From the IMG/VR virus record IMGVR_UViG_3300008220_001770, positions 1 through 20,211 of that record: DNA of 20,211 nt. The stretch is one strand, 5' to 3'. The position numbers and the translations under genes are program-made. Source of the stretch: a virus. The notes under the pieces are model-generated. The model had not been told where the DNA came from and did not search any database. It saw only the letters and a list, made by a program, of their open reading frames with translations. Position 1 is the stretch's first letter; each line of letters begins with the position of its first letter. Shown here piece after piece: positions 5,502 to 20,209 of the stretch.

Positions 5502-6245
5502 TTACACTGTCCAGTCGCGACTGCCGCGTACCAATAGGTAGTCGGCATCCAACTCCTCATTCGCAGCGCCCTTGGCCTCTACCGCCAGGGCCAACGCCAG
5601 GTCCGTCGAGGTCGATACTGCTCCCGCAAGGGTCTTGACGAGAACCTCGTCAATGTACCACTCCACCTCGCCGGTGATCTTGAGAACCAGCTTCAGTACC
5701 TGCCACTCACCTGCGACTGCGTCGTCGTCGAGGTCGAGAGCCGTGGAGTCGGTTACCGCTGATGCGGAGCCTCCGTTGTACACCGCGTGCCAGTCCTCGT
5801 CGTCGGTCAGATCTGCGGAGAGCAGGAACCCGACAAAGTCGGATGCGGTGTTGGTGATGGTCGTACCCGCACCGTGGACCACGTCATCCTCGATGGACAG
5901 TATGTTGGGATCGATGTCTGAGAACCCAAAGAACACCTCTTTAGTATCGAGGTTGTTCAGTTGAATTCGGCACTCTGCCATGATGGTTCCCATCAGGCCG
6001 ACGTCCCACATGATGTTCGTGCCGACGAGAAGCGTGTGTTTGTCCTCGTTGGTGGTCGTCAAGCGTCCCACGCCGTTCAAGTTCGGGTCCGCAGCCCCCG
6101 TGATGACACCGGAGTCAACATCCTCACTTCCATCACCTCCGATGATGAAGTCGCCGTAATTCCGTGTCGCTGCCGTCTCTGCTATGTTGTCCTCGGTCGT
6201 GAAGTCCGTGAACAACTCTACGATTCCGCGTTCACCCTGTGGCAT
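5502..6245 (-). CDS. Lectin-like (concanavalin A-like sandwich) virion protein
   Basis: 247 residues, acidic. ATG overlaps the end of the HNH-like gene by 14 bases, with AGGAG about 11 bases upstream. From about residue 55 onward the protein is a succession of beta strands typical of a laminin-G or concanavalin A-like sandwich: LTTTNEDKHTLLVG, GTIMAECRIQL, KEVFFGFSD, DFVGFLLSAD, DWHAVYNGG, GEWQVLKLVLKITGEVEWYIDEVLVKTL, TDLALALAVEAKG and the closing DADYLLVRG. The strand pair around WYIDEVLVKTL matches the common pattern in such folds (W-Y-I-D-G/E-x-L-V). It sits two genes downstream of the capsid gene, so a head decoration protein is a good guess; a glycan-binding appendage is the alternative. 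Fold assigned from strand pattern only. Confidence 0.85.
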   Translation of the reverse strand: MPQGERGIVELFTDFTTEDNIAETAATRNYGDFIIGGDGSEDVDSGVITGAADPNLNGVGRLTTTNEDKHTLLVGTNIMWDVGLMGTIMAECRIQLNNLDTKEVFFGFSDIDPNILSIEDDVVHGAGTTITNTASDFVGFLLSADLTDDEDWHAVYNGGSASAVTDSTALDLDDDAVAGEWQVLKLVLKITGEVEWYIDEVLVKTLAGAVSTSTDLALALAVEAKGAANEELDADYLLVRGSRDWTV

Positions 6246-6456
6246 CTTGTTCTTTCTCCTGCTGAAGCTCTAGCTCCAGTTGTTTAATACGCTTCCTATA
6301 GGGAGCGGCTATTTCGGATATGTTGCCCGTCTTGCGGGGTACGGCGGCCAGGTTCTCTAGCCGCACGTCCCCCAAATCGCCATTCATCGCGTGTATTACC
6401 CAGCCCTTAGGAATAGGGCCTCGCCTCGCCGTCCACGCTTCCCGGCGGGCGTTCAT
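6232..6456 (-). CDS. Small HNH-fold protein with degenerate catalytic motif
   Basis: 74 residues, ATG three bases after the capsid gene's TAA, with no clear ribosome binding site, so translation is probably coupled. Residues 13-41 match the core of HNH homing-type nucleases: GPIPKGWVIHAMNGDLGDVR followed by LENLAAVPRKTGN, compared with the usual GPIPEGxVVxHxxGDxxDNRxENLxxV. The normally invariant histidine (second position of the DH/HH pair) is Ala24 here, and the usual Asn of DNR is Val31. Both point to a dead nuclease. A charged helix follows (YRKRIKQLELELQQEKEQ). A structural or DNA-binding reuse of the fold is possible, as is a decaying homing endonuclease remnant. Family recognised from memory of the motif. 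Confidence 0.75.
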   Translation of the reverse strand: MNARREAWTARRGPIPKGWVIHAMNGDLGDVRLENLAAVPRKTGNISEIAAPYRKRIKQLELELQQEKEQDATG

Positions 6457-6459
6457 CGA

Positions 6460-7332
6460 TTAAGACGTGGGTGCGGTTGCGTCCGTGATCCACTCGAAGA
6501 GCCAGTTGCCAGAACTGCGCTCTCCGTAGGCGTACTCGTCGTAGTGGAACAGACTGACCGAGCCTCCACCGATATGCGGCTCGTCGCGCATCCTGATGTA
6601 GGGCGACCTACCCTGCACCAACACGATAGCCTCCTGTGGGAATATCCCATTTTTGACATCGGTATTGCTGTCGATCGGTATGTTGCCATCGGTAAATACA
6701 CCGGCGCTGAAGAGCACACCCTGCATGCCACCCGCGAACGTGTCAGCGGTTCTACCAGCAGGGAGCGGGTAGGTGCCAATGCCACTGACTATCTCGTCCT
6801 GAATGTCCTTTATTGCAAAAGGATGCGCCACTACTCGGAAGGGTGGGTTACCGGGCTCGGTAGCGTTGCCTTGAATACGTGCAATCGCTGCGGAGACATG
6901 ACCGGACGTGCCGGACGCTCCCGCGCTTCCTATCTGGGTGCCGCTGTCGAAGACGGTGATGCCGTCCTCATCCTTCTTGCGCTGGATAGCGTTCTGGGCG
7001 AGGGCACCTGTTTTCGCGTAGGCGTTCTTACTAATCCTGGCTGCTACGCGGTCGGTGATCAGGGTCTGGATACCTACCACCGTCGGCGTGACGGTGAATA
7101 GGGTATCGGAGAGTTTCTGGGGGTTGTTCAACTCGGTGGACTCTTGGATCGCCTGGGCAGAAAGTTGTGCCAAGGAGACCTCATTCCACGACAGACCATC
7201 GCCCTCACCGAGGGTGACAGTATCTACGAGCTGGGGTACGACCCCTTTGAACTCCCTCACGATACGGGCGGACTGTATGATAGTTGGAAGTGAATCCGCC
7301 AGATCTTCTGTAAGGGTCTTGCCGGCTGCCAT
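6460..7332 (-). CDS. Major capsid protein (HK97-fold type)
   Basis: 290 residues. Start and preceding stop overlap as TAATG immediately after the scaffold gene, the classic scaffold-capsid order; a GAGAGGAAT ribosome binding site lies upstream. The N-terminal arm is helical (TLTEDLADSLPTIIQSARIV). It is followed by a stretch consistent with an E-loop (about 45-90: WNEVSLAQLSAQAIQESTEL) and a long spine-like helix (about 92-120: ITDRVAARISKNAYAKTGAL). The A-domain-like segment has FRVVAHPFAIKDIQDEIVSG and later PQEAIVLVQGRSPYIRMRDE, a pattern common in capsid proteins where a linear beta strand precedes the C-terminal part. Length fits a minimal HK97 fold after scaffold-assisted assembly. The call rests on context and secondary-structure pattern, not on a family match. 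Confidence 0.88.
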   Translation of the reverse strand: MAAGKTLTEDLADSLPTIIQSARIVREFKGVVPQLVDTVTLGEGDGLSWNEVSLAQLSAQAIQESTELNNPQKLSDTLFTVTPTVVGIQTLITDRVAARISKNAYAKTGALAQNAIQRKKDEDGITVFDSGTQIGSAGASGTSGHVSAAIARIQGNATEPGNPPFRVVAHPFAIKDIQDEIVSGIGTYPLPAGRTADTFAGGMQGVLFSAGVFTDGNIPIDSNTDVKNGIFPQEAIVLVQGRSPYIRMRDEPHIGGGSVSLFHYDEYAYGERSSGNWLFEWITDATAPTS

Positions 7333-8198
7333 TAGATGTTGATTCCTCTCTTAGAGTAGATTTCACGAAGTCGGATGGCGTCCTGCAAGGATGCTGCATT
7401 TTCGTCGCTGCCCATCCTATCCAGAAATGCCTCGTCGCTGTCTCCGCCTCCGGTGGTTGTCCCTGGGTCGTTGTCCATAACTCCGAGACGCTGGGTAAGC
7501 CCTTCTCGGTCAACTACAGCCTTATCGGCCACAGTCTTAGTCTCAGCCTGTGCAGCAGCTACGGTGGCGATTAGGCTGTCCTCTTTATACTTTAGGTACA
7601 GGTCATCAAAAACCGACAGGTCACGCTTCTCTAGAGGTAGCCCTTGCTGCACCTTGAGAGCCTTAGTCCAATCATCTACCATAGAGGTTCGATCCGATTC
7701 TGGAGTCGTCTCTACCAGAGTCCTGAACTTATCCTGTTTAACTGTGAACTTAGCATTGAACGCTAATTCACTAGTTTGGGTCTGTCCGTCCTGTGCTATT
7801 TTGTCGAGTGCTGCCTGTTTCGCCTCTGGGGATTCGTGGTCACGGAACCCTTCTGCAAGCTGACGTCCCATGATGTCCATTCTTGCAAGGGCCGTTTCCA
7901 GTCCCTCTGACAGAGCCGCGATACGCTCGTCGCCCTGTCCTGCTGCTTTCGCCCGCCCTTCGGCTGTCGAGGTTGCTTGCTTGGAGTCGATAAGTTCTTT
8001 ACGAACTGCCTCCAAGTCGGCTGTTAGACTTTCGATGGTGGGTACGGGTTGCTCATTCACTGCGTCCTTAGCCCTCTGAGCGGAGCCTAGGAGAGGTTCA
8101 TCTCCCAGGGACGCCTCTGAGGATTTCGAGTCGTCAGTCGTCTGAGGGGCCGTATCACCTTCATCTGCCTTCGCCGCCTCGTCTACCTCTGTAACCAT
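7332..8198 (-). CDS. Capsid scaffolding protein
   Basis: 288 residues, ATG preceded by GGAGG at good spacing. The N-terminal 50 residues are acidic and disordered-looking (VDEAAKADEGDTAPQTTDDS). The centre consists of charged helices with coiled-coil character (LTADLEAVRKELIDSKQ; RIAALSEGLETALARMDIMGRQLAEGF; then SLIATVAAAQAETKTVADKAV). The C terminus is a short charged helix (DAIRLREIYSKRGINI), the usual place for coat-binding in scaffolds. Acidity, coiled coils, absence of cysteines and position directly before the capsid gene are the standard signature. It is the first gene after the promoter-terminator island; a TTCG-capped hairpin (8219-8230) lies in its leader. No protease domain is visible. 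Confidence 0.85.
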   Translation of the reverse strand: MVTEVDEAAKADEGDTAPQTTDDSKSSEASLGDEPLLGSAQRAKDAVNEQPVPTIESLTADLEAVRKELIDSKQATSTAEGRAKAAGQGDERIAALSEGLETALARMDIMGRQLAEGFRDHESPEAKQAALDKIAQDGQTQTSELAFNAKFTVKQDKFRTLVETTPESDRTSMVDDWTKALKVQQGLPLEKRDLSVFDDLYLKYKEDSLIATVAAAQAETKTVADKAVVDREGLTQRLGVMDNDPGTTTGGGDSDEAFLDRMGSDENAASLQDAIRLREIYSKRGINI

Positions 8199-8358: not shown

Positions 8359-8386
8359 ATTAGACCCTAACACCCAACGGTGTCAA
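8359..8386 (-). promoter_or_regulatory. Sigma70-type promoter reading toward the capsid genes
   Basis: On the minus strand a perfect -35 box TTGACA (8386-8381) is followed after 16 bases by TCTAAT (8364-8359), five of six matches to the -10 consensus. The -10 overlaps the stop codon of the Com-like gene. Transcription would start near 8352. It is the only near-consensus promoter I noticed in an intergenic position here. The spacing is slightly shorter than the optimal 17. Confidence 0.6.
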
Positions 8387-8527
8387 GTGTCGTTTCCTAC
8401 GAGGTCGCTTTATAAGGACTACCTCTAGGTGACATCCCTGGCAGTACAGCTCCCCCTCGTCCATATCCGTGGCCTTGACTAGGAAGGTGCTGCACTCTGG
8501 GCACTTCAGGTCTCGTGGCGCGGTCAC
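8360..8527 (-). CDS. Com-like zinc-finger protein
   Basis: 55 residues, GTG start overlapping the stop of the giant gene as GTGA, ending in a double stop TAATAA. The protein begins VTAPRDLKCPECS and holds C9, C12, C29 and C32 (C-x2-C-x16-C-x2-C), followed by hydrophobic LEVVLI and a basic tail RPRRKRH. This is the layout of Com of phage Mu (a zinc-binding activator of mom translation) and of small zinc-ribbon proteins often placed among phage head genes. The Mu role cannot be assumed: no mom-like gene is in the window. RNA or DNA binding is likely from the zinc knuckles and basic tail. AGGA lies about nine bases before the start. Confidence 0.75.
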   Translation of the reverse strand: MTAPRDLKCPECSTFLVKATDMDEGELYCQGCHLEVVLIKRPRRKRHLTPLGVRV

Positions 8528-11500
8528 TGGTTATTGTCCTGGGACGCAAAGAACTTCCTTCGTGCTTCAGCTTCCTTGGCCCGCTTGATCTCAGTGGCCT
8601 CGAACTCTGCCCGTACATTGTCGAAAACTGGGTTGTTACGATAGCCCCAGAAGATGAGAGCTCGGTCAGCCTCCTCACCTCCTTTATACTTAACCCATTG
8701 CTCCCTGATTGAAAGCTGACCCTTCGGCTTTGCATCAAGGTAGTTGAACAGTCCTTTCAGATCTTGCATATCGACACGTTGCATGAACAACTTACGTCCG
8801 GCTGGTGGAACTCTTAGGTACTCACGCCACTTGCTCTCTAGGCCATTTTCTATGACGTAGTCCTCGGTCAGCGTGAAGTAACCGGATAGCAAATCTCGGT
8901 CCGCACGCAGCTTCTTGATGATATCAGGGTCGTCATCTCGGAACCCCGCTTCTACTATGTCTATGATCTCGTCACCATAGCCATTCTCGAGCCCCTCGAT
9001 TACTTTGTCCTTATCGTCCAGTATAGGTCCATTACGCAGGACATCCAGCCGCTTGTCCCGTTCCTTGTAGTTGAAGTGCAGGGTCTCATCGTCCTCGAGA
9101 TCGTCATCGAATATGAGCCTGATGTAGTGTGCGGTAGCCTCGTCTACAGGTTGACTACCAGGCCTATCCTCGTAGGTATAATCCGACGCATCGGAATGGA
9201 GTTTTCGTATCGTATCATTTCGGCCATAGTGTTCAGCCTGCTCTTTTGCGATCTTGGTCCGTAGACTTCTGCCAAACGTGGCTTTCTGTCCCTCTTTGAG
9301 CTTGCCTTCATTTGATAGACGGTTCGTTAGGGCTAAATCGTTCAACCTACCTGTGTACCGAGTATGCTCAGTGGTAAGTGCTTGTTTGTACTCGACCACA
9401 CCAGCATTACGGGCGTCCCTCGTGATATTCCTCTGCTCCCACGCCTCGTTGACCTCCGAGTTCTGCAACACACGTTCTTGCTCAGGCCCGTCCAACGAGA
9501 AGTAATCCTTTCCAACAAGGTCACTGAGAGACGGGTCTGTCTCTATCGCGTTGTTCGCCACCTCTTTGAACTCCTCGTTCGTGGTGATCGGGCTGCTCTT
9601 GAGCCCGAATGTGCCACCTAAACCTGCTGCCGCGGCCCCCGTCAAATCTCCCTCCAACGCCTTGGACCCAGCCTGCGCCGCCTCCTCGAAGGAGAATGGA
9701 GCGAGTGAGCCCAAAGCCCACATGCCGAAGTCCATGTTCAGGCCCGGGTCAGGGTTTTGTTCTCCGATTGCGTTTTCCTCGAACATATATAGGTCCATCA
9801 ATGCCTGAACCGGTCCAGATGCTAGGCTCCTAATCGAACTGGCAGGATTCATAATAATGGACACCAGCGAGTCGTAAGTACCAAAGAGAGAGAAGTCCCT
9901 ACCGCCGATCCGTACCCTCATGAAGTTACTATTCTTGCGGAACGAGGGCTTGTAGGACGGTGCGAAGTTCTCATCCAAGAACGGACGGAAGTCGGTCTCG
10001 TTGCCTAGCATCGCGTTCAGTCCCACGGTCATAAGTGTGCCCTGCCCTATGAGACGAAAGACTGCTCGTCGGGCTAACCGGTTCTCGATAGATGCTCCGG
10101 GTACCGTGCCCTTGACGGCGTTGAGTGTGGTCGTGAGGCGTGACTGTAGGAAGCGAGGAGCGAATAGAGCAATGTCTCCCAAGGTGCCAAAGCTCTTACC
10201 CTCGGTCCAGCCCGTGGCGTTGTTCACGAACTTGGCTATCCTCTCCATGTCACCGGAGTCGATGATCTCCTGTAACGTCCGCTTCTGGCCTAGCCCCACA
10301 CCGGGTATTTTTTTATCGAAGGGTAACTTGGCGGCTGCTTTGCCAGCATAGCTAGCCAGCCAACCACCACCAGCCATCTCGTCTCGGAGGATGGAGTCGG
10401 CCCACTGGAGACGTACGGCGTCACCGTAGTAACCGAAGGACCGGTTGAACATTTCGATAGAACTCTTGGCGACACTCGGGGCCTGAGCCGTACCCAGTTT
10501 GAATTCGGTGTGAGCACCACCAATGCGTAGGAAGTGCCGAGCCCACTCGGAGGATTGTAGCCTACCCGTAGCCTTGGCTTCTATATTGAACTGTCCCATG
10601 TACGCGCCTAAAGAGTGTTCACTCCCAATCGCTTTAAACATCACCTTCATCGCCTCTTGGGTTGCCTTTGGCGCATTGTGCATAGCCAAAAGTCCCTGGA
10701 TACCAGGAGCAGAAAAGTCGGCGGTAGACCTTATGCTACGGTGTAGGTTGGTGATGGATTCTATGCCTAGTTGGATATGCTTCAGATCACTGGTATCCAT
10801 CTCCCTATTGATGGCCTTTGCCACTTCTCCCGGGAAACCTACTCCCTGTAGGTTGAATGCCTTGATGGCACGCTCTCCCAGAGGCACCTGACTCGCAATC
10901 TCTTTCGCCTGCGTCCAACTAAGCATGATACGCTGCAACTCAACCCTGGCGTCGTTCAGGCCTAGATCTGTGATCATTGAGTTTATCTGGGCCCGCTCGG
11001 TGGCGTTCGTGGCGTTCTCCAAGGCGCGGTTAAGCCTACGTTGGTCACGCTCGAGCATGGTTACATCACGTTTTAGCCCGTTTAAGGTACGCTCCTTGTC
11101 GGTCATGTTTCGGACGATTTTGGCGTTCTTTACCATCTCCTGACGCGATGCCTTCAGGATGTCGTCAGTCAGGTCTCCCTTTTCGATCAGGTCGTCCACC
11201 TTTGCGGCGGAGTTCTCAACCGCGTCAGCAGCCTTAGTGACCAAATTGGTCATTTTCCTTGACAGGGCATTGGCCTTGTTGATATCTGTTATCGATGGTG
11301 TACCGGGTGGGGTCATGAACAGGAACTGCTCCGCCTCTGACGCGGCCTTGTTCCACTCCTCAATCAGGGCATCCAGCTTCTTAGAGTCCTTATTGGCATT
11401 GCCCTTTGCGAACTTGAGTTGCTGCGATATCTCGCCAGCATCTTTGGTGAAGGAGATAGTCTCCTCACGGGCAATCCCCAGGTCAGCCCTAGCTTCAGCC

Positions 11501-13440
11501 ATATCGGCTGGTGTGTACCCATCGTAGGATCCGAATCGCTCCTCGGCCTTCGTTAGACGATTGGTTCCAGCATCCCTGGCACGCTGCTGCCTATTCTCTA
11601 TCTGTTTGAGCGTGTTGATGCGTGCAGACTGACCTATGGATGTACGAACCCTACTGGCAATCTTGGCCCTTTCTTTAGTTACCGCGTCCCTTAGGTACGG
11701 GTCCAGCCGCTCCTGTGACGTGCTTGCCAGCTTCTTACCGGTCACAGGGTCCACCGCCGACATGGCGTATTCACGTACGGCCTTGTTGGAAGTCTCTCTG
11801 TACACGTCCGCGATGTAATCTCTAACGGCCACACCTGGCGATGGGAAGTGCCTGTCTTCTAGGAGTTGTCTTTCGATTTGTGCTGCGTGAGTACCTTCAC
11901 GTCTGGTCTTAGCTGAGTTATTGGATGCCCCTATCCGACCACTGGCAGATTCTAATCCGTCATCAACGGAGCCACGAGGCCAGTAGAACGGACCAGGAGA
12001 CTCGTCTAATACCGACAGGGGGATATTATCAACGTCGCGGTCAAAACGGATGATATTTCTTATCTCGTTCTCGATCGCAACCTGCTCGTACGGATTCAGC
12101 ATCTCACGGTATCGTCTCATCGCTGCCTTTTGTGGCCCCGTGAGATGCGGCCAATACTTGTCTAGATTCTCAGCTATATCGCCTATGGATGGGCCTGCCT
12201 CAGGAATGTTCTCAACATGCTTTAGACTTTTCTCATTAAGACCTTCGGTGACGAGGTTGTTCTGGTTCATCGGGAAATGTTGTCGGATGCTATCGCTGAT
12301 CTCGTGACTCAGAGAGGTCGATACACTTTCTCCCCTCAGTACCATACTGTTCCGGTAGCCGAACGTGGGGTGCATAACCGAGTCATAGGGCACAGGCCGT
12401 ATGATGTTCATGAATTCGTCGTATCGAGATAGGCCGCTGGTGATATCGGGAGGATTCAGAACCTTCTTTGCGACAGGCCCGGGTTTCACTTGGCTCCATT
12501 TAAGGCCGCGTCCATCAAAGCCACGGAAGATTCGTGTCGGATCCTCTACAAAGGCCCCGACCCGTCGTTTTGCCAGAATCGAAGCGTTCTCGTAAATCTT
12601 GCCAAGGACAGGGATGTTATTCTTAGTAAGCCTTACGGTACCCGTTACTTGACCGACTACTACCTTCGGACCTTCCATCAGAAGGCCCCCCAACAGACGC
12701 TCGTACCAGGGTCGGTCTATCCCTAATTCTGTCAATCGACGTCTTATCTCGAACTGCTGCTTCGGGGTCAGCAGATTACCCAGCTCTTTCGTTCTGGGAA
12801 GTCCATTTGCATCGAATTGTTCCTCGAGTGTGATCTTCCGCGCAGCCTGGTTGCGCTCTTTCCAACCGTCCATGACTCCTTCGGGCAGAGCCTCTAGTGG
12901 GAAGGTGACTCCTTTAAGCATCTTCTGCTCGAGGGGTACGAACCAGCGATCGAGGTGTTCTAGACGAGTCCTCTCCTCTGGGTCCACACGGAACTCAGCC
13001 TCAGTGCTACTGATCGTCGGTGTCGTGAAAAAATCAGCGATACTAGATATTTGAGGACCTATAATAGGACCTCCGAACAAACTTTCCTTCGCGAAGCCAG
13101 ATATAGCCTCGTCTAAACCACTAGGCTTTAGCCCGCCCTGAATCTTCTCACGAGCACGTTCAAAGGACGTCCCCTCACGTAGAAAGTCCTGTGTCATGTA
13201 ATCGGCACCGAGGCCCCTCTCCCTTGCGGCCAAGGGATCAGCACGGAACTCGTTGAGGATATCCTCTCTCTCCCGCTGACCCGGCTGCTGGCCTGGTAGA
13301 AGCGATAACATCTCGTCAACATTAAGAGGGTCTTTAAATGAGGTCGGCTTGAATCCGAGTGGTAGAATAGTCTTTTGAGCACGACGTTCAGCGGCTTCAA
13401 GTCCCGGTTCTAAGTTAGGATCACTACCACGGTTAACCAT
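8524..13440 (-). CDS. Giant internal virion / ejection-type protein
   Basis: 1638 residues, start overlapping the previous stop as TAATG with AGGAG upstream. Residues 6-22 carry the SDPNLEPGL tag shared with the basic protein at 20209-19703. Residues 245-290 hold a hydrophobic stretch (YERLLGGLLMEGPKVVVGQV); 580-860 is long, charged and helical, probably coiled coil. Residues 905-1105 carry motifs I associate from memory with very large phage proteins (LPD / internal-core type): DFSAPGIQG, KIPGVGLG, then FVNNATGW and LFAPRFLQSRL. A second hydrophobic segment follows at about 1126-1146. The C-terminal 350 residues are charged and helical. Size, hydrophobic segments and a place after portal fit a T7 gp16-like protein ejected with DNA. 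I find no convincing transglycosylase, protease or polymerase motif. A virion-packaged enzyme remains possible. Confidence 0.85.
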   Translation of the reverse strand: MVNRGSDPNLEPGLEAAERRAQKTILPLGFKPTSFKDPLNVDEMLSLLPGQQPGQREREDILNEFRADPLAARERGLGADYMTQDFLREGTSFERAREKIQGGLKPSGLDEAISGFAKESLFGGPIIGPQISSIADFFTTPTISSTEAEFRVDPEERTRLEHLDRWFVPLEQKMLKGVTFPLEALPEGVMDGWKERNQAARKITLEEQFDANGLPRTKELGNLLTPKQQFEIRRRLTELGIDRPWYERLLGGLLMEGPKVVVGQVTGTVRLTKNNIPVLGKIYENASILAKRRVGAFVEDPTRIFRGFDGRGLKWSQVKPGPVAKKVLNPPDITSGLSRYDEFMNIIRPVPYDSVMHPTFGYRNSMVLRGESVSTSLSHEISDSIRQHFPMNQNNLVTEGLNEKSLKHVENIPEAGPSIGDIAENLDKYWPHLTGPQKAAMRRYREMLNPYEQVAIENEIRNIIRFDRDVDNIPLSVLDESPGPFYWPRGSVDDGLESASGRIGASNNSAKTRREGTHAAQIERQLLEDRHFPSPGVAVRDYIADVYRETSNKAVREYAMSAVDPVTGKKLASTSQERLDPYLRDAVTKERAKIASRVRTSIGQSARINTLKQIENRQQRARDAGTNRLTKAEERFGSYDGYTPADMAEARADLGIAREETISFTKDAGEISQQLKFAKGNANKDSKKLDALIEEWNKAASEAEQFLFMTPPGTPSITDINKANALSRKMTNLVTKAADAVENSAAKVDDLIEKGDLTDDILKASRQEMVKNAKIVRNMTDKERTLNGLKRDVTMLERDQRRLNRALENATNATERAQINSMITDLGLNDARVELQRIMLSWTQAKEIASQVPLGERAIKAFNLQGVGFPGEVAKAINREMDTSDLKHIQLGIESITNLHRSIRSTADFSAPGIQGLLAMHNAPKATQEAMKVMFKAIGSEHSLGAYMGQFNIEAKATGRLQSSEWARHFLRIGGAHTEFKLGTAQAPSVAKSSIEMFNRSFGYYGDAVRLQWADSILRDEMAGGGWLASYAGKAAAKLPFDKKIPGVGLGQKRTLQEIIDSGDMERIAKFVNNATGWTEGKSFGTLGDIALFAPRFLQSRLTTTLNAVKGTVPGASIENRLARRAVFRLIGQGTLMTVGLNAMLGNETDFRPFLDENFAPSYKPSFRKNSNFMRVRIGGRDFSLFGTYDSLVSIIMNPASSIRSLASGPVQALMDLYMFEENAIGEQNPDPGLNMDFGMWALGSLAPFSFEEAAQAGSKALEGDLTGAAAAGLGGTFGLKSSPITTNEEFKEVANNAIETDPSLSDLVGKDYFSLDGPEQERVLQNSEVNEAWEQRNITRDARNAGVVEYKQALTTEHTRYTGRLNDLALTNRLSNEGKLKEGQKATFGRSLRTKIAKEQAEHYGRNDTIRKLHSDASDYTYEDRPGSQPVDEATAHYIRLIFDDDLEDDETLHFNYKERDKRLDVLRNGPILDDKDKVIEGLENGYGDEIIDIVEAGFRDDDPDIIKKLRADRDLLSGYFTLTEDYVIENGLESKWREYLRVPPAGRKLFMQRVDMQDLKGLFNYLDAKPKGQLSIREQWVKYKGGEEADRALIFWGYRNNPVFDNVRAEFEATEIKRAKEAEARRKFFASQDNNQ
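13375..13425 (-). other. Shared N-terminal peptide tag, copy in the giant protein
   Basis: Residues 6-22 of the 1638-residue protein read SDPNLEPGLEAAERRAQ. Fifteen of 17 positions match residues 17-33 of the basic protein. The codons differ silently at nine of the 15 matching residues, so the match is at peptide level. After the tag the two proteins diverge completely. Confidence 0.85.
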
Positions 13441-16184
13441 TAGGCGCTCCTACTAAACGTGCTAAACCCACCGCGTAGAGCCCGTCGATCCCGCTCCTCA
13501 CGATCCCGTTCGGCCTCTGTTTCAGCCTGCACACGCGCACGTTCCTCTTCGTTCTGCCTTCTCTGTACGGTAGACGGTTGCACGTCGAACTCAGCCGTTA
13601 GTGCGCCTGATTCTTGTGCCAAGAAGTCTGCCTTGGACAGGCCAGCATGGGTCGGACCTCTAGCCGTAGTTTGCTCTGGAGCAGGTGTGACCTTACCGGT
13701 AGAGGCATCGACCACCTCCCCGAATCGAGCCTGGAAGACATCCTCGGCCTCTTGGTAGCGGCGTTGGCCCTCTTCACGAAACCTTTCGTCGAATTCCTTG
13801 GTGCCAGCCTCACGGATCAGGTACTGCTGCAAGAACGGATCACCCCCGGACAGATCAAGAGCCGCTTGGGCTAGCTCCGTGTCCGTACCGAAGTCCAGTC
13901 CGAACAACTCCTCCTGAGTGATGGTGCCTGCGGAGCCGAGTGTCGGTAGAGGTGCGATGCCCGCTGAAACCAGGGCACGTTGGGCCGATACGGGGATGCC
14001 CGGTATCCGAGTCGGGTCTATCTGAGCCGCCTCCCGGGCTATCCTAGCCTCGAACTGGCTCTGCGTCTCGAAGGCGGGTATCGAGGGGTCAAATGTTCGG
14101 CGTGCTCGTTCTTCAGCATTGAGAGCTTCATCGAAGGCGCTCAGACCTCGTTGAGTCCCCATCTCGATGTCGCCCGGGAATACCGAGCCCCGCCCCTCTA
14201 TGGCCTCAGGCGGTGCGACCTCAGGCTCTGCCAAAGTATCTCTGATAAATCTGGGTATGTCCTTAGATACATCAACACCGGGTGCCAAGTTTCGGATTGC
14301 GGTCTGTAGTTGGAACTCCAACTGGTCTAGTGTGCCGCCCTCTCGCAAGAACTTCTGATACTCTCTGCTGCCGCCGAGACCTTGGAGTTGAAACTCAAGT
14401 TCCCCACGGCTGATAGAGGCTAGATTGTCTTTGGTGATGGCATCTAGCCTCGCCTCCTCCTCCGTGGCCGCTACTTCGCCCTCTGTTAAGGCAACATCAG
14501 CAAGATGCCTGGAATGAGCCTGTTCTACAAGTTCCATAGGTAAGGGAGTATCTTGAGGATTCGTTGCAATGAACGTCAAAATCTCTTCTTGGTCATCTTC
14601 GAGCAGGTCATCGAAATCCATGAACTTGAATGCTTCGGAGTCTAGACCCGACTCGAAAACTAGAATCCGTGCCAAAGCCTTGAGCTTCGTAGGAGTCCTG
14701 ATGGTTTCCGCGAACTCAGCCGCTGCCTCAGCCTCAGCCTCAGCCGTTTCTTTGGCGATCTCGGCTGTTTCTTCGTCTATCTCAGCCTGCTGAGAGGCGG
14801 CCAAGGAGATGTTGGCCTCACGGGCCGTGATCTCTCCGCCCGCCTCTAGGATTTGTCCTAAGCGGTATATCTCTTTTTCGTTAACATTATCCGCATCTAA
14901 TCCTAGTAGGTTATCCAGGGCATTTTTAACAGCCTTGTCACGGGCTGGCGGGTCGTCCTGAATCTTCTGGAGGTTTATGATCGCCTCGGCCTCACGTTGG
15001 GCCGCGACATCGTCGTCTAAGTCTCCTTGGAAGGTGGTTGCCTGATCCTCTGCGAACGATACTAGGTTCTCGGCATATTGATCTTCTGAAATGTTTTTGC
15101 CCAAGGAGGTTTCATAGTTGCGTAAGGCCTGTATCCTAGCATCACGGGCATTCTTAAAGGCGGTGTACTGTTTTAGCTGGTCTTCAGGAGATACTCCCTC
15201 GTCGGTAGTACGTCTCGCATTAACGAATTGATTCTTAGAGAACAGTTCCTGTCCTGCATCGGTCATCAGGACACGATCCACGATAGATGCGGCAGCAGCA
15301 TTATCGAATTTTTTGTTGGAATAACCCCCTGCTATCCGAATACTCTCGTCCCGACCGGTGACCGCCGTTGGCACCTCAACCTCGAGCCATGAACCAGTGG
15401 GAACGATGGTCTCGCCAGCTTGTATGTCCTCTACCTTTAAGGTTTGGGCGAACTGGGTCACGGCCTCGGAGAAGTCCTGAGGTGTTGGTAGGTATCGACC
15501 TAACGGGTCATCCTCAGCCCCTACCGCTCCTTCGACCAAACCAGCAGCCTCGCGGTTAGCCTTCAGGGCCATGGTACTGTCGAACCATGTGCCGATGTCC
15601 ACCGATGCTGTCCAGTCTGCTGCCTGAGGTAGCAGGGACCTGTTCACATTGATGTTGTCTTCTTCTCTGATAGCCAGCGACAATTCCGGGGTCATACCTG
15701 TAGATCCCGTTCGGTTGATATTGGCGGTTTCTAAGCCAGCGACCAGTGAGTCCAGTTTCATCTTATTCGTGATTACTTCAGGGAAGTTACGAATCTCTCT
15801 ATTGCGCTTCTCGATTACGTGTAGCATCGCCGCATCTATCTCGGGAAGGCCTATTGAAGCACTGATGGTGAACTTACTTGGATCGGGATTCAGTAGAAGA
15901 TTGGCGACTTTATTTTTGTTCTCAGTCGTGTTTACAATAGAGAATGATATGCGCCCTGGGTCATCCATCCTGGCATGAACGTCCCTAAGAGTTTCGGTAA
16001 TGAGCTGATCAATCTGCTTTATGTTGTACCCGGTCCTGCGTGTGGCATCCTCGACGGTTACCGTAAGAAACAGCGGCGTACTTTGTGAGGCAGGGGTCTT
16101 ATATCCTGGCTCATCCTCCTCTGTTTTTGGAGGTAGGAGTAGAGCGTTTATACGTTTTTGTAGTTCTTCCTGTGGGGTTGCCAT
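13440..16184 (-). CDS. Large acidic, helix-rich candidate internal virion protein
   Basis: 914 residues; GAGGT ribosome binding site just before ATG. Residues 1-130 appear mixed alpha/beta (LFLTVTVEDATRR, RISFSIVNTTENK, KFTISASIGLPEI). Residues 335-500 are helical and end in a long Ala/Glu helix (about 465-495, AEIAKETAEAEAEAAAEF). A short duplicated phrase, LEFQLQ, occurs at about 596-601 and 622-627. The C terminus (about 870-905) is a highly charged helix with RARVQAETEAERDREERDRR. There is no signal peptide or membrane segment. Its place between portal and the 1638-residue protein suggests that the two work together in the head core or ejection apparatus. No family is recognised, and an assembly-chaperone role is possible. 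Confidence 0.82.
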   Translation of the reverse strand: MATPQEELQKRINALLLPPKTEEDEPGYKTPASQSTPLFLTVTVEDATRRTGYNIKQIDQLITETLRDVHARMDDPGRISFSIVNTTENKNKVANLLLNPDPSKFTISASIGLPEIDAAMLHVIEKRNREIRNFPEVITNKMKLDSLVAGLETANINRTGSTGMTPELSLAIREEDNINVNRSLLPQAADWTASVDIGTWFDSTMALKANREAAGLVEGAVGAEDDPLGRYLPTPQDFSEAVTQFAQTLKVEDIQAGETIVPTGSWLEVEVPTAVTGRDESIRIAGGYSNKKFDNAAAASIVDRVLMTDAGQELFSKNQFVNARRTTDEGVSPEDQLKQYTAFKNARDARIQALRNYETSLGKNISEDQYAENLVSFAEDQATTFQGDLDDDVAAQREAEAIINLQKIQDDPPARDKAVKNALDNLLGLDADNVNEKEIYRLGQILEAGGEITAREANISLAASQQAEIDEETAEIAKETAEAEAEAAAEFAETIRTPTKLKALARILVFESGLDSEAFKFMDFDDLLEDDQEEILTFIATNPQDTPLPMELVEQAHSRHLADVALTEGEVAATEEEARLDAITKDNLASISRGELEFQLQGLGGSREYQKFLREGGTLDQLEFQLQTAIRNLAPGVDVSKDIPRFIRDTLAEPEVAPPEAIEGRGSVFPGDIEMGTQRGLSAFDEALNAEERARRTFDPSIPAFETQSQFEARIAREAAQIDPTRIPGIPVSAQRALVSAGIAPLPTLGSAGTITQEELFGLDFGTDTELAQAALDLSGGDPFLQQYLIREAGTKEFDERFREEGQRRYQEAEDVFQARFGEVVDASTGKVTPAPEQTTARGPTHAGLSKADFLAQESGALTAEFDVQPSTVQRRQNEEERARVQAETEAERDREERDRRALRGGFSTFSRSA

Positions 16185-16192
16185 GGTTTACC

Positions 16193-16360
16193 TCAGACCC
16201 TACCTATGCCAAGGCGTTTTTTCGCTTCTGTGACCGGGTTGGGAGCCCCCGCGGTCGAGTCGAACTTCTCGCCCTTGGACTTATCCGCCAGTTTTATGTT
16301 CTCAGCGTGGTGCGCGATGATCCTCTGAACCGCCTGGTTGGTCGATGCTGCATCTGCCAT
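16193..16360 (-). CDS. 55-residue hypothetical protein between portal and the large internal protein
   Basis: MADAASTNQAVQRIIAHHAE, then a Lys-rich middle (KLADKSKGEKFD) and a C-terminal basic helix (TEAKKRLGIGRV). The ATG overlaps the portal stop as TAATG and has an excellent ribosome binding site (AGGAGG, nine bases upstream, inside portal), so it is almost certainly translated. It stops eight bases before the 914-residue gene. Small, basic and polar; perhaps a portal-associated or head-completion peptide. It is easy to miss because it is short. Function unknown. Confidence 0.8.
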   Translation of the reverse strand: MADAASTNQAVQRIIAHHAENIKLADKSKGEKFDSTAGAPNPVTEAKKRLGIGRV

Positions 16361-18150
16361 TAGAGGCCACCTCCTAGTAGGTCTGCCAGACCGGCATTCT
16401 CACCGCCACCGTTGACCCCGCCCGCGGCATGACGTAAGCGGTCGGAGTCTTCCAGCTCAACCCCTTCGGCCACGTTGGGATTCTCGCCTGCCGCTATCGC
16501 TGCTTCTGCCTCTCGAGCCGCCTGGAACTCCTTCTCGAATCCCAGTCTAGCAGCTACCGGGCCCGCGACCTGTTGCCGTACCCCCGGATCGCGATATATG
16601 TCGTCTTCTTCCAGAGAGGTGCGAATAGCCTCGATATCGGGTGTCCGACGATGGTCTGAGTGGAACTGCTCGAAGCCGATCAATCGGTCTCTGTACAGCC
16701 TGGTACCCAGGTCGATGTCACGCATACGTGCCAACTCGTCTTCTATCTCGAATCGGGCGTTTATATGGTAACTGTGATAGATATCAGACCTGAATAGTTG
16801 CTTACCGCGTGCGCCGATGGTCCCACCAATATCCACTAACCGCAGGATACGTCCGCCAACTTCGGTAGCTAGGTCTTCCATCCTGACTACGGGGGCCGCG
16901 AACTTTCGGTTGGTCTGCCCTGTCAGGATCTGTTGCTGCCCCAGCGTCACTACCCCCGGCTGCTTCTGACCGGCGGTATCTCTGGAATAGGTGGCGAACT
17001 CGATATCACGGTCGATGTCTGCTCCCTCTTGGAAGAAGAATCGTTCGGCATCAGGGGTAGGGACGAGGAATACCTCTTCCTTACCGTCCTGTCCTGCCTG
17101 TCCGATACCATCGCCAGCCAGTGACCTCTGCAATTCGGCAGTGTCCCCGGTCGTCATGTACTTCTGGAACGCCCGTCTGATCATCAGGGTATGGGTGGCG
17201 TTCATCCGTTGGGTCTCCATCTGGAGGTCGTCCATCACCGGATGAAGGATTCCTATGGCGTCGTACTTGGGATCGTAGTCCTCCAGCGTCGTGGGCTGCA
17301 TACCCCACCCCGCGAAGGCGTGGCCGTATGGAACGAATCCTGCTATGGACGGCTCGATATAGACCATTTCGCCGTCAGCCAGGAAGGCGTGCCAGCCATT
17401 GTTATAGAAGTCGGATGTCTTGATCCAGTCGAACATACCGATATCGCTGTGATTCTTGATGAGCCACTGCTTGGCCGTCCTGCGCTGCTGCCTGGACCCC
17501 GACTTGTAACGGCTGAGTTCCTCGACCTGATGAGCCCGCATACGCCCAGTCTTGATGGCGAACCGGGGACTGGACTCCTCGGGGTCCATCAGAACCCGTG
17601 CCGGGTGAACGGCCCGTAACCGGATGGGGTTCCAGTACCGTAGTTCGGTCTGATATATATCCTGCCGAAGTTTGAACTCCTTATCGGTCTCATCTGCGAA
17701 ACGAGTGGGCGGTTGCGGCTTGTCGCGCTCCGACCATGTCGGCCCTTCGACCGGGAAGTACCCGTAATGTGCGCCGTGGCGACCGAGCTGTTTCCAGAAC
17801 AGGGCTGTCTCGAGTCTGGCCGAGTCTGTTTCCACGGCCAGAAGACCCGTTTCTACCCGTTGTGCCGCTGTTTTGTGATTTGAATTCTTATCTATGAGGG
17901 GTTCTCGATTCCATTTCGGACTGAAGGCCAAGAACGCATCACTGGCGTGGTCCACGATGGCTCGACCTCTACCCGGACGCATGTTACCGCGTTGCCGTCG
18001 GTGCTCATCGAGATTCCATACCTTGTAGTTACCCTGATAGAACTCGTCGTACCTTGCCCACTGGTCGTGGGTTCCAGACCAGGTCTCGATGAGTGCTCTC
18101 TGTGCGTCCATGACCATTTCGATCGTGGGTTTATCCTGCGTAGTAGCCAT
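16360..18150 (-). CDS. Portal protein
   Basis: 596 residues, the expected length for a portal, nine bases after the terminase stop with an AGAGGT ribosome binding site. The early part has a helix with Trp and Tyr (ETWSGTHDQWARYDEFYQGN) and then IVDHASDAFLAFSPKWNREP (65-84), the position and style of the conserved N-terminal wing strand of portals. The middle has the RLRAVHPARVLMDPEES strand. About 400-450 is a helical stem/crown-like part (ITGQTNRKFAAPVVRMEDLA), with an Ala/Glu-rich C-terminal tail. The terminase-portal order is typical. The protein assembles as a 12-mer at one capsid vertex, the channel for DNA packaging and exit. The call rests on order, length and general pattern. Confidence 0.85.
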   Translation of the reverse strand: MATTQDKPTIEMVMDAQRALIETWSGTHDQWARYDEFYQGNYKVWNLDEHRRQRGNMRPGRGRAIVDHASDAFLAFSPKWNREPLIDKNSNHKTAAQRVETGLLAVETDSARLETALFWKQLGRHGAHYGYFPVEGPTWSERDKPQPPTRFADETDKEFKLRQDIYQTELRYWNPIRLRAVHPARVLMDPEESSPRFAIKTGRMRAHQVEELSRYKSGSRQQRRTAKQWLIKNHSDIGMFDWIKTSDFYNNGWHAFLADGEMVYIEPSIAGFVPYGHAFAGWGMQPTTLEDYDPKYDAIGILHPVMDDLQMETQRMNATHTLMIRRAFQKYMTTGDTAELQRSLAGDGIGQAGQDGKEEVFLVPTPDAERFFFQEGADIDRDIEFATYSRDTAGQKQPGVVTLGQQQILTGQTNRKFAAPVVRMEDLATEVGGRILRLVDIGGTIGARGKQLFRSDIYHSYHINARFEIEDELARMRDIDLGTRLYRDRLIGFEQFHSDHRRTPDIEAIRTSLEEDDIYRDPGVRQQVAGPVAARLGFEKEFQAAREAEAAIAAGENPNVAEGVELEDSDRLRHAAGGVNGGGENAGLADLLGGGL

Positions 18151-18159
18151 GTTACCTCT

Positions 18160-19701
18160 CTAGAAATCCCGTGGCAGAGCCATGTCCGTACCTGCCTCTG
18201 TGAAAGAGAATACCATTTCACGCATCTGCCAGCATATCCCGACTGCGAACGGGTAGTCGTCATGGGCCCCACCAAGAGCCTCGTCCCTACCCCTATTTTT
18301 TGGGTTTCGATATACAGATGCGAACTGGTCTATACCCGCCTCGTTGGGAATATGTATCTGCCCCGACCGAACGGCCATCTTCAGTTCGTTCCACAGCAGT
18401 CTACGGCTTACCTCGTCGGTATGCCAGCCCTCCAGTCTCCTGCCACCGGCGGTCTTGCCACGGTATATCTTCCTATTAGGATATTTTTTGAGTTCAACGA
18501 CCTTGATGACGGTCTTGCCGTTATCGTTATCTTCGATACCCCAGAATGGGAATCCATAAACCTCCATCAAAGCCAGGGACTCGAGGGCGAAGTCTTCGGC
18601 CTCAAGGGTATTGTCCATCAGATCAGCGACGACGACACCGGTATCACGTTCCATGATGACGGTCACGCTGAAATCAAGCTCGACACCCAGAGAAACGTCG
18701 GACCCGGCGATATACCGCTGACCCGGTCGTGGTAGCTGGTATACATTGCCCTTACCGTTAATACCTACGGTCTTGAGGACTTTTCGGACATCGTAATTAC
18801 GCATATCGTCCAGGCGCTGACGTACGAACGAGGCCAGCTTTATGGACGCGGAGAGTGCTACTTCTGCGGTCGCAGGATATTCTTTCTCGAACTGAACGTC
18901 GTCCATAGACTCAGCTTTACGATCGGCAAGCCACTGCGCGTCGCGTCCGGGTACTACCTTCCACGAGAAGAATACCGGCGTCCAGTGTTTGTCCACCGAT
19001 TCGCGGTAGAGTCTCTTGAACCCACTATTAAGGGTCTCGTGGTTAGATGTCGAGACGATAATAGCCTGTCCACCGGCATCGACGGTTGGCATCAGGGTCC
19101 CATAAGAGGTGTCGTAATACTCGTGGAAGTCTGCCTCATCCATCACGAAGAACGAGAACGTGGCACCGCGTCCTGCACGTTTCGTACTGGGATACGCCCT
19201 CAGACGGCTCCCATTCGCGAACTGTACAACGGTGGTATTGTCCTTGATGATCTCCATCTGGAGGTGTGCCGGTAGGTAATGGTGGTTGAGCATCCCCTTG
19301 CCCAGGAACTCTACCGCCTCGTCCTCGCCCTGGGAGAACAGGCCTCCCTCGGTATTGGGAGCGTAGCAGCGCCATAAGGCATATGCCGCAAGGATGGTGG
19401 TGGCCCCTATCTGTCGGGCCTTGAGCCAGACAATACGGTCATTTACCAGGGTCATATCGTAATTGGGGTCGTCGGTATCCTTGTTCACCACGTCAGTAAG
19501 TGTATGAACAATATCTTCCATGTGGGGCCACATGGTGAAGTTGATGAGGCCGAAGTTCTCGGGCATACCGGGAGCTACCGGCGGCTTCTTGACCCGTACG
19601 AAGTTCTTCAGAAAGTACCCAAAGTCGTGTTCGACCAGCCACCGTTGGGCTTGTTTCTCTTCTTCGGTAAGTACGCCGGTGCGTTCGGCTGTGAGAGTCA
19701 C
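18160..19701 (-). CDS. terL: Terminase large subunit
   Basis: 513 residues from a GTG start one base after the basic protein's TAG; no ATG is available before residue 57. The ATPase half has a Walker A-type loop KARQIGATT (94-102), Walker B FFVMDEAD (184-191, catalytic E189) and a coupling motif STSN (217-220). The nuclease half has the RNase H-like acidic triad: D335 in IAGSDVSLG, E390-D391 in WGIEDN, and D481/D482 in HDDYPFA. All motifs are intact. It is the motor that pumps DNA through the portal and cuts the concatemer. No obvious small terminase is in the window unless the basic protein upstream fills that role. Confidence 0.96.
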   Translation of the reverse strand: MTLTAERTGVLTEEEKQAQRWLVEHDFGYFLKNFVRVKKPPVAPGMPENFGLINFTMWPHMEDIVHTLTDVVNKDTDDPNYDMTLVNDRIVWLKARQIGATTILAAYALWRCYAPNTEGGLFSQGEDEAVEFLGKGMLNHHYLPAHLQMEIIKDNTTVVQFANGSRLRAYPSTKRAGRGATFSFFVMDEADFHEYYDTSYGTLMPTVDAGGQAIIVSTSNHETLNSGFKRLYRESVDKHWTPVFFSWKVVPGRDAQWLADRKAESMDDVQFEKEYPATAEVALSASIKLASFVRQRLDDMRNYDVRKVLKTVGINGKGNVYQLPRPGQRYIAGSDVSLGVELDFSVTVIMERDTGVVVADLMDNTLEAEDFALESLALMEVYGFPFWGIEDNDNGKTVIKVVELKKYPNRKIYRGKTAGGRRLEGWHTDEVSRRLLWNELKMAVRSGQIHIPNEAGIDQFASVYRNPKNRGRDEALGGAHDDYPFAVGICWQMREMVFSFTEAGTDMALPRDF

Positions 19702-19702
19702 A

Positions 19703-20209
19703 CTACTTCAAGCGTTTTCTAGGAGCCGCTGCTCTAGGGCGTGCTGGGGCCCTCTTTTTTGGTGTTGCTGGCTTCCGCCTTGGTGTTGGAGGCATCAGTT
19801 CCATTGTACGCGGGTTTACTCTACGCCTCGTCGGTGCAGGGTCACCTTTACGCCTGGGCGGTGTTGGTAGTAGCTGCCTTGGGGAGACGGGTGCAGGTTT
19901 GCGCTTCCCCCGTGGTGGAGCCGACTTGGCTCCCAGGGCTCGCCCTCTTTTTATCCCGGCTGCTCCTCCCTGAAGTTCTGCCGGGGCCTTCTTCTTAGGT
20001 GTCGCCCTACCAGGACTTTTGAATGGGCGCATAGCTTCCATCATCTTCTCTATCATCTGTTTTTGGAGAGACTTTAGCTCTGCACTTTGTGAGGCCTTCT
20101 TCTTTGGAGCCTGTGCCCGTCTGGTGGCGGCTGCAAGACCCGGCTCAAGGTTAGGGTCACTCGTCCGTTTCCGACGTGCGGGTGTCTTCCGCTTTGGTGC
20201 TGGCATCAC
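19703..20209 (-). CDS. Highly basic Lys/Arg/Pro/Ala-rich protein with shared N-terminal tag
   Basis: 168 residues as read from GTG at 20209-20207; an ATG at 20206-20204 is an equally good start, and the frame could continue beyond the window. By my count 49 residues are Lys or Arg and only about eight acidic. After a basic opening (PAPKRKTPARRKR) comes the tag SDPNLEPGLAAATRRAQ (17-33), then a short amphipathic helix (AELKSLQKQMIEKMMEAM). The long C-terminal tail is built of PTPPRRK / PTPRRKPATPKKRAPA-like repeats, reminiscent of histone H1-type or HU C-terminal tails. DNA binding and condensation is the natural inference. Position just upstream of terL is where small terminases often lie, but no helix-turn-helix is visible. 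A packaged DNA-compaction protein is my preferred reading. Confidence 0.75.
   Translation of the reverse strand: MMPAPKRKTPARRKRTSDPNLEPGLAAATRRAQAPKKKASQSAELKSLQKQMIEKMMEAMRPFKSPGRATPKKKAPAELQGGAAGIKRGRALGAKSAPPRGKRKPAPVSPRQLLPTPPRRKGDPAPTRRRVNPRTMELMPPTPRRKPATPKKRAPARPRAAAPRKRLK
20111..20161 (-). other. Shared N-terminal peptide tag, copy in the basic protein
   Basis: Residues 17-33 read SDPNLEPGLAAATRRAQ, matching the start of the giant 1638-residue protein at 15 of 17 positions. A basic cluster (RRKRT) precedes it here, whereas only five residues precede it in the giant protein. Confidence 0.85.

Follow-up and report, generated by a model that had tools for sequence, protein, structure and literature searches.

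The internal head proteins of phage T4 are taken into the prohead core by a common N-terminal peptide, and related basic proteins with such targeting sequences are carried by the T-even phages (PMC9026906). The head of phage P1 contains DarB, a 250-kDa protein whose first 30 residues, but not the first nine, are enough to carry a reporter inside; truncation experiments pointed to residues around 6-10 as critical, and the targeting was shown without reference to cleavage (PMC9024508). A signal common to the Dar proteins was also sought in the P1 study, and none was found (PMC9024508). Phage-type polyvalent proteins form a third relevant group, for which packaging into the virion and injection are predicted (PMC5512222).

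The locus compared with these systems is a 20,211-base record of an uncultivated virus, probably a marine phage, analysed over its whole length (referred to as the window). All main genes lie on the minus strand. From the right edge the order is a basic 167-aa protein, terminase, portal, a 55-aa protein, a 914-aa acidic protein, a 1638-aa giant protein, a Cys-rich 55-aa protein, a scaffold-like protein, and capsid. The features needed below are as follows.

19703..20206, minus strand: basic protein, of 167 aa if it starts with the ATG at 20206; the frame continues without a stop as far as the contig edge
20111..20161, minus strand: first copy of the shared peptide, SDPNLEPGLAAATRRAQ, residues 16-32 of the basic protein if counted from the ATG at 20206
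18160..19701, minus strand: terminase large subunit (Pfam Terminase_6N and PHROG 2)
16360..18150, minus strand: portal protein, candidate partner of the peptide; its structure model matches portal proteins
13440..16184, minus strand: 914-aa acidic protein, with a detectable relative only in L010, the nearest locus by terminase
13447..13451, minus strand: AGGAG, a ribosome-binding-like site six bases before the ATG of the giant
8524..13440, minus strand: giant, 1638 aa, a divergent, polyvalent-protein-like member of the family occupying the slot between portal and scaffold
13375..13425, minus strand: second copy of the shared peptide, SDPNLEPGLEAAERRAQ, residues 6-22 of the giant
9481..10923, minus strand: conserved core of the giant, residues 840-1320; its model matches 'large polyvalent protein associated domain' proteins
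7332..8198, minus strand: scaffold-like acidic protein, pI 4.5, candidate partner of the peptide, named from its position
6460..7332, minus strand: major capsid protein, with relatives 64% identical in IMG/VR

Judged by profile, the terminase assignment is certain. Profile searches gave no match for the portal protein, and its structure model had 113 matches at E<=1e-3, many of them named portal. The capsid aligned with the annotated capsid of Pelagibacter phage HTVC111P (tblastn, E=4e-6); this phage and HTVC026P, at 25-29% identity, are the nearest annotated phages by capsid. HTVC111P has the terminase-portal-scaffold-capsid order of the window, with an annotated scaffold in the slot where the scaffold-like protein precedes the capsid, but, unlike the window, it has no giant gene in the corresponding slot. 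The 914-aa acidic protein is a probable inner-head or ejection partner, judged by its position. It is almost an orphan, its relatedness being confined to part of the syntenic L010 protein, and the same slot in relatives usually holds a protein of similar size.

Two further small genes were noted in this region. Directly after the capsid gene (6232-6456, minus strand) lies a 74-aa HNH-like protein that shares 73-77% identity with its best relatives across 57 residues and thereby exceeds the capsid in conservation; where an HH pair normally has its second His, Ala or Asn is present. The Cys-rich 55-aa protein between giant and scaffold (8360-8527, minus strand) is zinc-ribbon-like, and small Cys-rich proteins fill the same slot in L064, L072, and L076.

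An earlier note on this DNA had reported that the 17-residue peptide SDPNLEPGL[A/E]AA[T/E]RRAQ is shared by two otherwise unrelated proteins, with about 71% of the bases matching and nine synonymous codons, and the match was reproduced at the positions given above (15/17 residues and 36/51 bases, or 70.6%, identical). Nothing else was found in common between the basic protein and the giant. The partner of the giant is strongly basic, as had been described, with a pI of 12, a net charge of about +40, 29% K+R, and 17% Pro. The ungapped match reaches one conserved Arg further, to R-x-SDPNLEPGL.AA.RRAQ, with a BLOSUM62 score of 77; the pair ranked first among all protein pairs of the window, the runner-up scoring 50, and had an E of ~6e-6 in a screen of N termini. 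Because the basic protein is of low complexity (rich in P, A, K, and R), chance similarity was considered, and it is extremely unlikely: 1000 shuffles gave a mean score of 34.5 (sd 3.7) and a maximum of 52, and the matched stretch lies outside the low-complexity part.

The whole record was searched for further copies, as the earlier note had proposed, and only these two were present. Residues 722-738 of the 914-aa protein were considered as a third copy and rejected as not significant, since 6% of shuffled tags match equally well, and weak matches between the tag and PDB sequences of staphylococcal surface repeats (E 0.003 or worse) were taken as chance.

The N-terminal location is firm for one protein and likely for the other. 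The start of the giant is a sound assignment, judged from the TAATG stop/start overlap and the AGGAG upstream of it. The frame of the basic protein runs to the contig edge without a stop; its probable start is the ATG at 20206, which is part of a supporting TGATG stop/start overlap (20208-20204).

Constraint on the shared peptide was assessed at the codon level. Identical codons encode six of the 15 conserved residues, and synonymous codons the other nine; the six compare with 4.7 (sd 1.7) expected from independent choice, and silent sites are saturated. The two copies gave a dN of 0.16 and a dS of 3.26, and a simulated neutral copy given 15 base changes kept about 8 of the 17 residues on average and 15 in 0 of 20,000 trials; because the pair was picked for its peptide match, these constraint figures overstate certainty somewhat, by an amount judged too little to overturn them. 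The result agrees with the proposal that selection acts on the peptide and not on the DNA. The longest exact DNA run common to both copies, flanks included, is 6 bases, so that a DNA element and an assembly repeat are both excluded; neutral duplication is disfavoured by the simulation. The two copies could instead be the relic of an old recombination event that copied one gene start onto the other and left little present function. Phage genes are mosaic, and the tag, found in no homologue, must have arisen or moved within the lineage; such a relic would nevertheless be expected to keep only about half of the residues that are identical here, and we regard this explanation as very unlikely. We have high confidence that the tag is genuine, common to the two proteins, and under constraint.

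An all-against-all comparison of protein N termini was used as a blind screen. Applied to a segment of T4, it ranked the capsid-targeting sequence of IPII and IPIII first (S=59, against 77 for the window pair), and it therefore detects the right kind of signal. In 11 other phage records, most of them nearly whole, it picked out nothing beyond ordinary paralogues and repeats. Among its kin, the pair of the window is thus an exception.

The giant had been described as an ejection-type protein. It is a very large protein encoded among the virion genes of a terminase/portal phage, and it had no Pfam or PHROG match. The model of its core (pLDDT 67.8, moderate confidence) had 8 BFVD matches at E<=1e-3, four of which are named polyvalent (the best of these at E=1.8e-6), and no match in a fold search against the PDB. 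In L010, a giant in the same slot carries LPD38 (E=1e-16). The LPD38 polyvalent proteins (PMC5512222) thus resemble the giant of the window in very large size, in being encoded with virion genes, and in the core fold match, and differ from it in that the window giant lacks a Pfam match and is not significantly joined by sequence to the L010 giant with the family profile. On the modelled fold and the LPD38 domain of the syntenic L010 giant, an ejection-type role is likely. The part of the earlier description that is supported is the membership, by fold, in a class with predicted packaging and injection, and the place beside portal, scaffold, and capsid.

Relatives were collected by scans with the terminase, the giant, and the capsid, which gave about 150 loci. 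Their gene order is terminase, portal, a small gene, a gene for a protein of ~900 aa, giant, scaffold, and capsid, and iterated profile search placed the giants in one family with a fixed place between portal and scaffold. None of the giant homologues recovered carried the tag, and the phage collections that were searched did not contain it. When each half of the tag was scanned against IMG/VR as an exact motif, only unrelated proteins and wrong frames were returned; no match was obtained in phage records, in plasmids, or in 84,980 bacterial and archaeal genomes. Neither IMG/VR nor those 84,980 genomes contained a close relative of the giant, and no homologue of the basic protein was detected, the ~150 relative loci included. 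The tag is genome-specific. Conservation of the motif in homologues, which the earlier note had itself chosen as the test of its proposal, thus went against it.

A wider N-terminal signal in the family was also looked for. A conserved N-terminal island in the giants, suggested by picked pairs (L035/L070 and L067/L075) and by a first test, vanished under a position-matched control over all pairs, in which the first 30 residues were no more conserved than residues 32-91; there is thus no family-wide sign of an N-terminal signal. In the genomes of relatives, no second protein matched the N terminus of its giant. An N-terminal match between giant and ~900-aa protein in L051 and L070 (S=46) was weak and not significant genome-wide. 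Another repeated N-terminal motif does occur in the family, namely a short tandem repeat, RxLTAAEADPFGxT, in the N-terminal region of the giant of L044 (6500-11924) and also in L043, L054, and L096. In L061 (7345-12205) the giant region appears split into several frames, either by a frameshift or naturally.

Head targeting is the reading that we infer to be the best for the tag, and the chance that it is a docking motif sending both proteins into the assembling head is judged to be about even. One constrained peptide, placed at residues 6-22 in a giant and close to the start of a pI-12 protein encoded in the same late cluster, is what a shared head signal would be expected to look like by analogy with T4 and P1. 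The late genes of the phage would be expressed together; the exposed N-terminal peptide, which may form a Ser-Asp-Pro-Asn turn leading into a short basic helix, would bind one common site on an inner prohead component, most likely the acidic scaffold or the portal; the giant and the small basic protein, of DNA-binding type, would thereby be enclosed together in the head; and the giant, perhaps with the basic protein, would exit together with the DNA when a cell is infected. The most natural candidate receptors are the scaffold and the portal. Of the earlier capsid-targeting proposal, the selection on the peptide, the class of the giant, the basic partner, and the T4 and P1 precedents speak in favour, and the absence of the motif from the giant homologues speaks against.

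The nature of the peptide may also be compared with its T4 counterparts. The capsid-targeting sequence of T4 IPI, IPII, and IPIII is, like the tag, a short N-terminal peptide on otherwise different proteins, and its bearers include small internal head proteins (PMC9026906, PMC3012670). A short N-terminal peptide on at least two unrelated proteins, the T4 arrangement, is found in the window, with the start of the basic protein only likely. The T4 peptide begins at residue 1 and is cut by the prohead protease at Glu (about residue 10), whereas the tag offers no shared site and its removal at Glu is not indicated: no common Glu lies at its end, the second half of the basic copy (LAAATRRAQ) being without Glu. 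The tag shows no resemblance to the T4 peptides (MKTYQEFIAEA, MKTFKEFTS). The DNA encoding the peptide is identical between ipII and ipIII (30/30 bases) and is saturated at silent sites between the window copies, and one window bearer, unlike those of T4, is a 1638-aa protein. The profile matches of the window included no prohead protease gene, and conservation of the capsid protein among relatives begins at its first residue. No cleavage is therefore proposed, and the tag, if a targeting signal, is probably retained, as read from the missing common site and protease gene. Since the DarB targeting was shown without reference to cleavage, the missing site counts against membership of the T4 type only. 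The likeness to DarB is by description: both are giants, with a signal within the first 30 residues, most sensitive around 6-10, in DarB (PMC9024508), and with the tag at residues 6-22 here. Among the Dar proteins no shared signal sequence was found, whereas the tag is common to a second protein.

The position of the basic gene, which abuts the terminase gene and is followed next but one by the portal gene, a portal by fold, suggests another use of the peptide, as a docking site for the packaging motor or portal (for example, bridging terminase, portal, and DNA) and not as a cargo address; the basic protein would then work during packaging, with the giant seated on the portal. The gene preceding the terminase in relatives is often small-terminase-like, which is consistent with this. 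The tag, however, occurs in no relative although all have terminase and portal, and nothing links it to DNA packaging, so that such a docking site is considered unlikely. A role outside the virion common to both proteins, such as attachment to a host factor or chaperone, or of the two to one another, during infection, is quite unlikely: constraint at the protein level is silent on where the peptide works, and the tag is lineage-specific, as are many host-interaction motifs, but an N-terminal tag in a polyvalent-type giant better fits the packaging precedents (PMC9024508, PMC9026906).

The description of the head-targeting arrangement as an undescribed head-loading system was too strong, short N-terminal head-targeting peptides having been described in T4 and P1. 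The new aspect would be the occurrence, outside the T4 group, of a visible tag common to a small basic protein and a giant of polyvalent type. More tentatively, and short of an even chance, the tag may be part of a transferable head-loading code, in which a peptide and an inner-head receptor enrol the giant and a lineage-specific, DNA-condensing basic protein, and new cargo joins by gaining the peptide.

To our knowledge, the entry of giant polyvalent-type proteins into the head has been shown experimentally for very few phages. A visible shared tag would make this question testable, and, given related genomes, the tag alone would let other cargo be spotted; it would also be a further natural peptide with which proteins could be loaded into phage heads. 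Even if targeting is not its function, the tag remains well supported as a constrained motif that links two otherwise unrelated genes.
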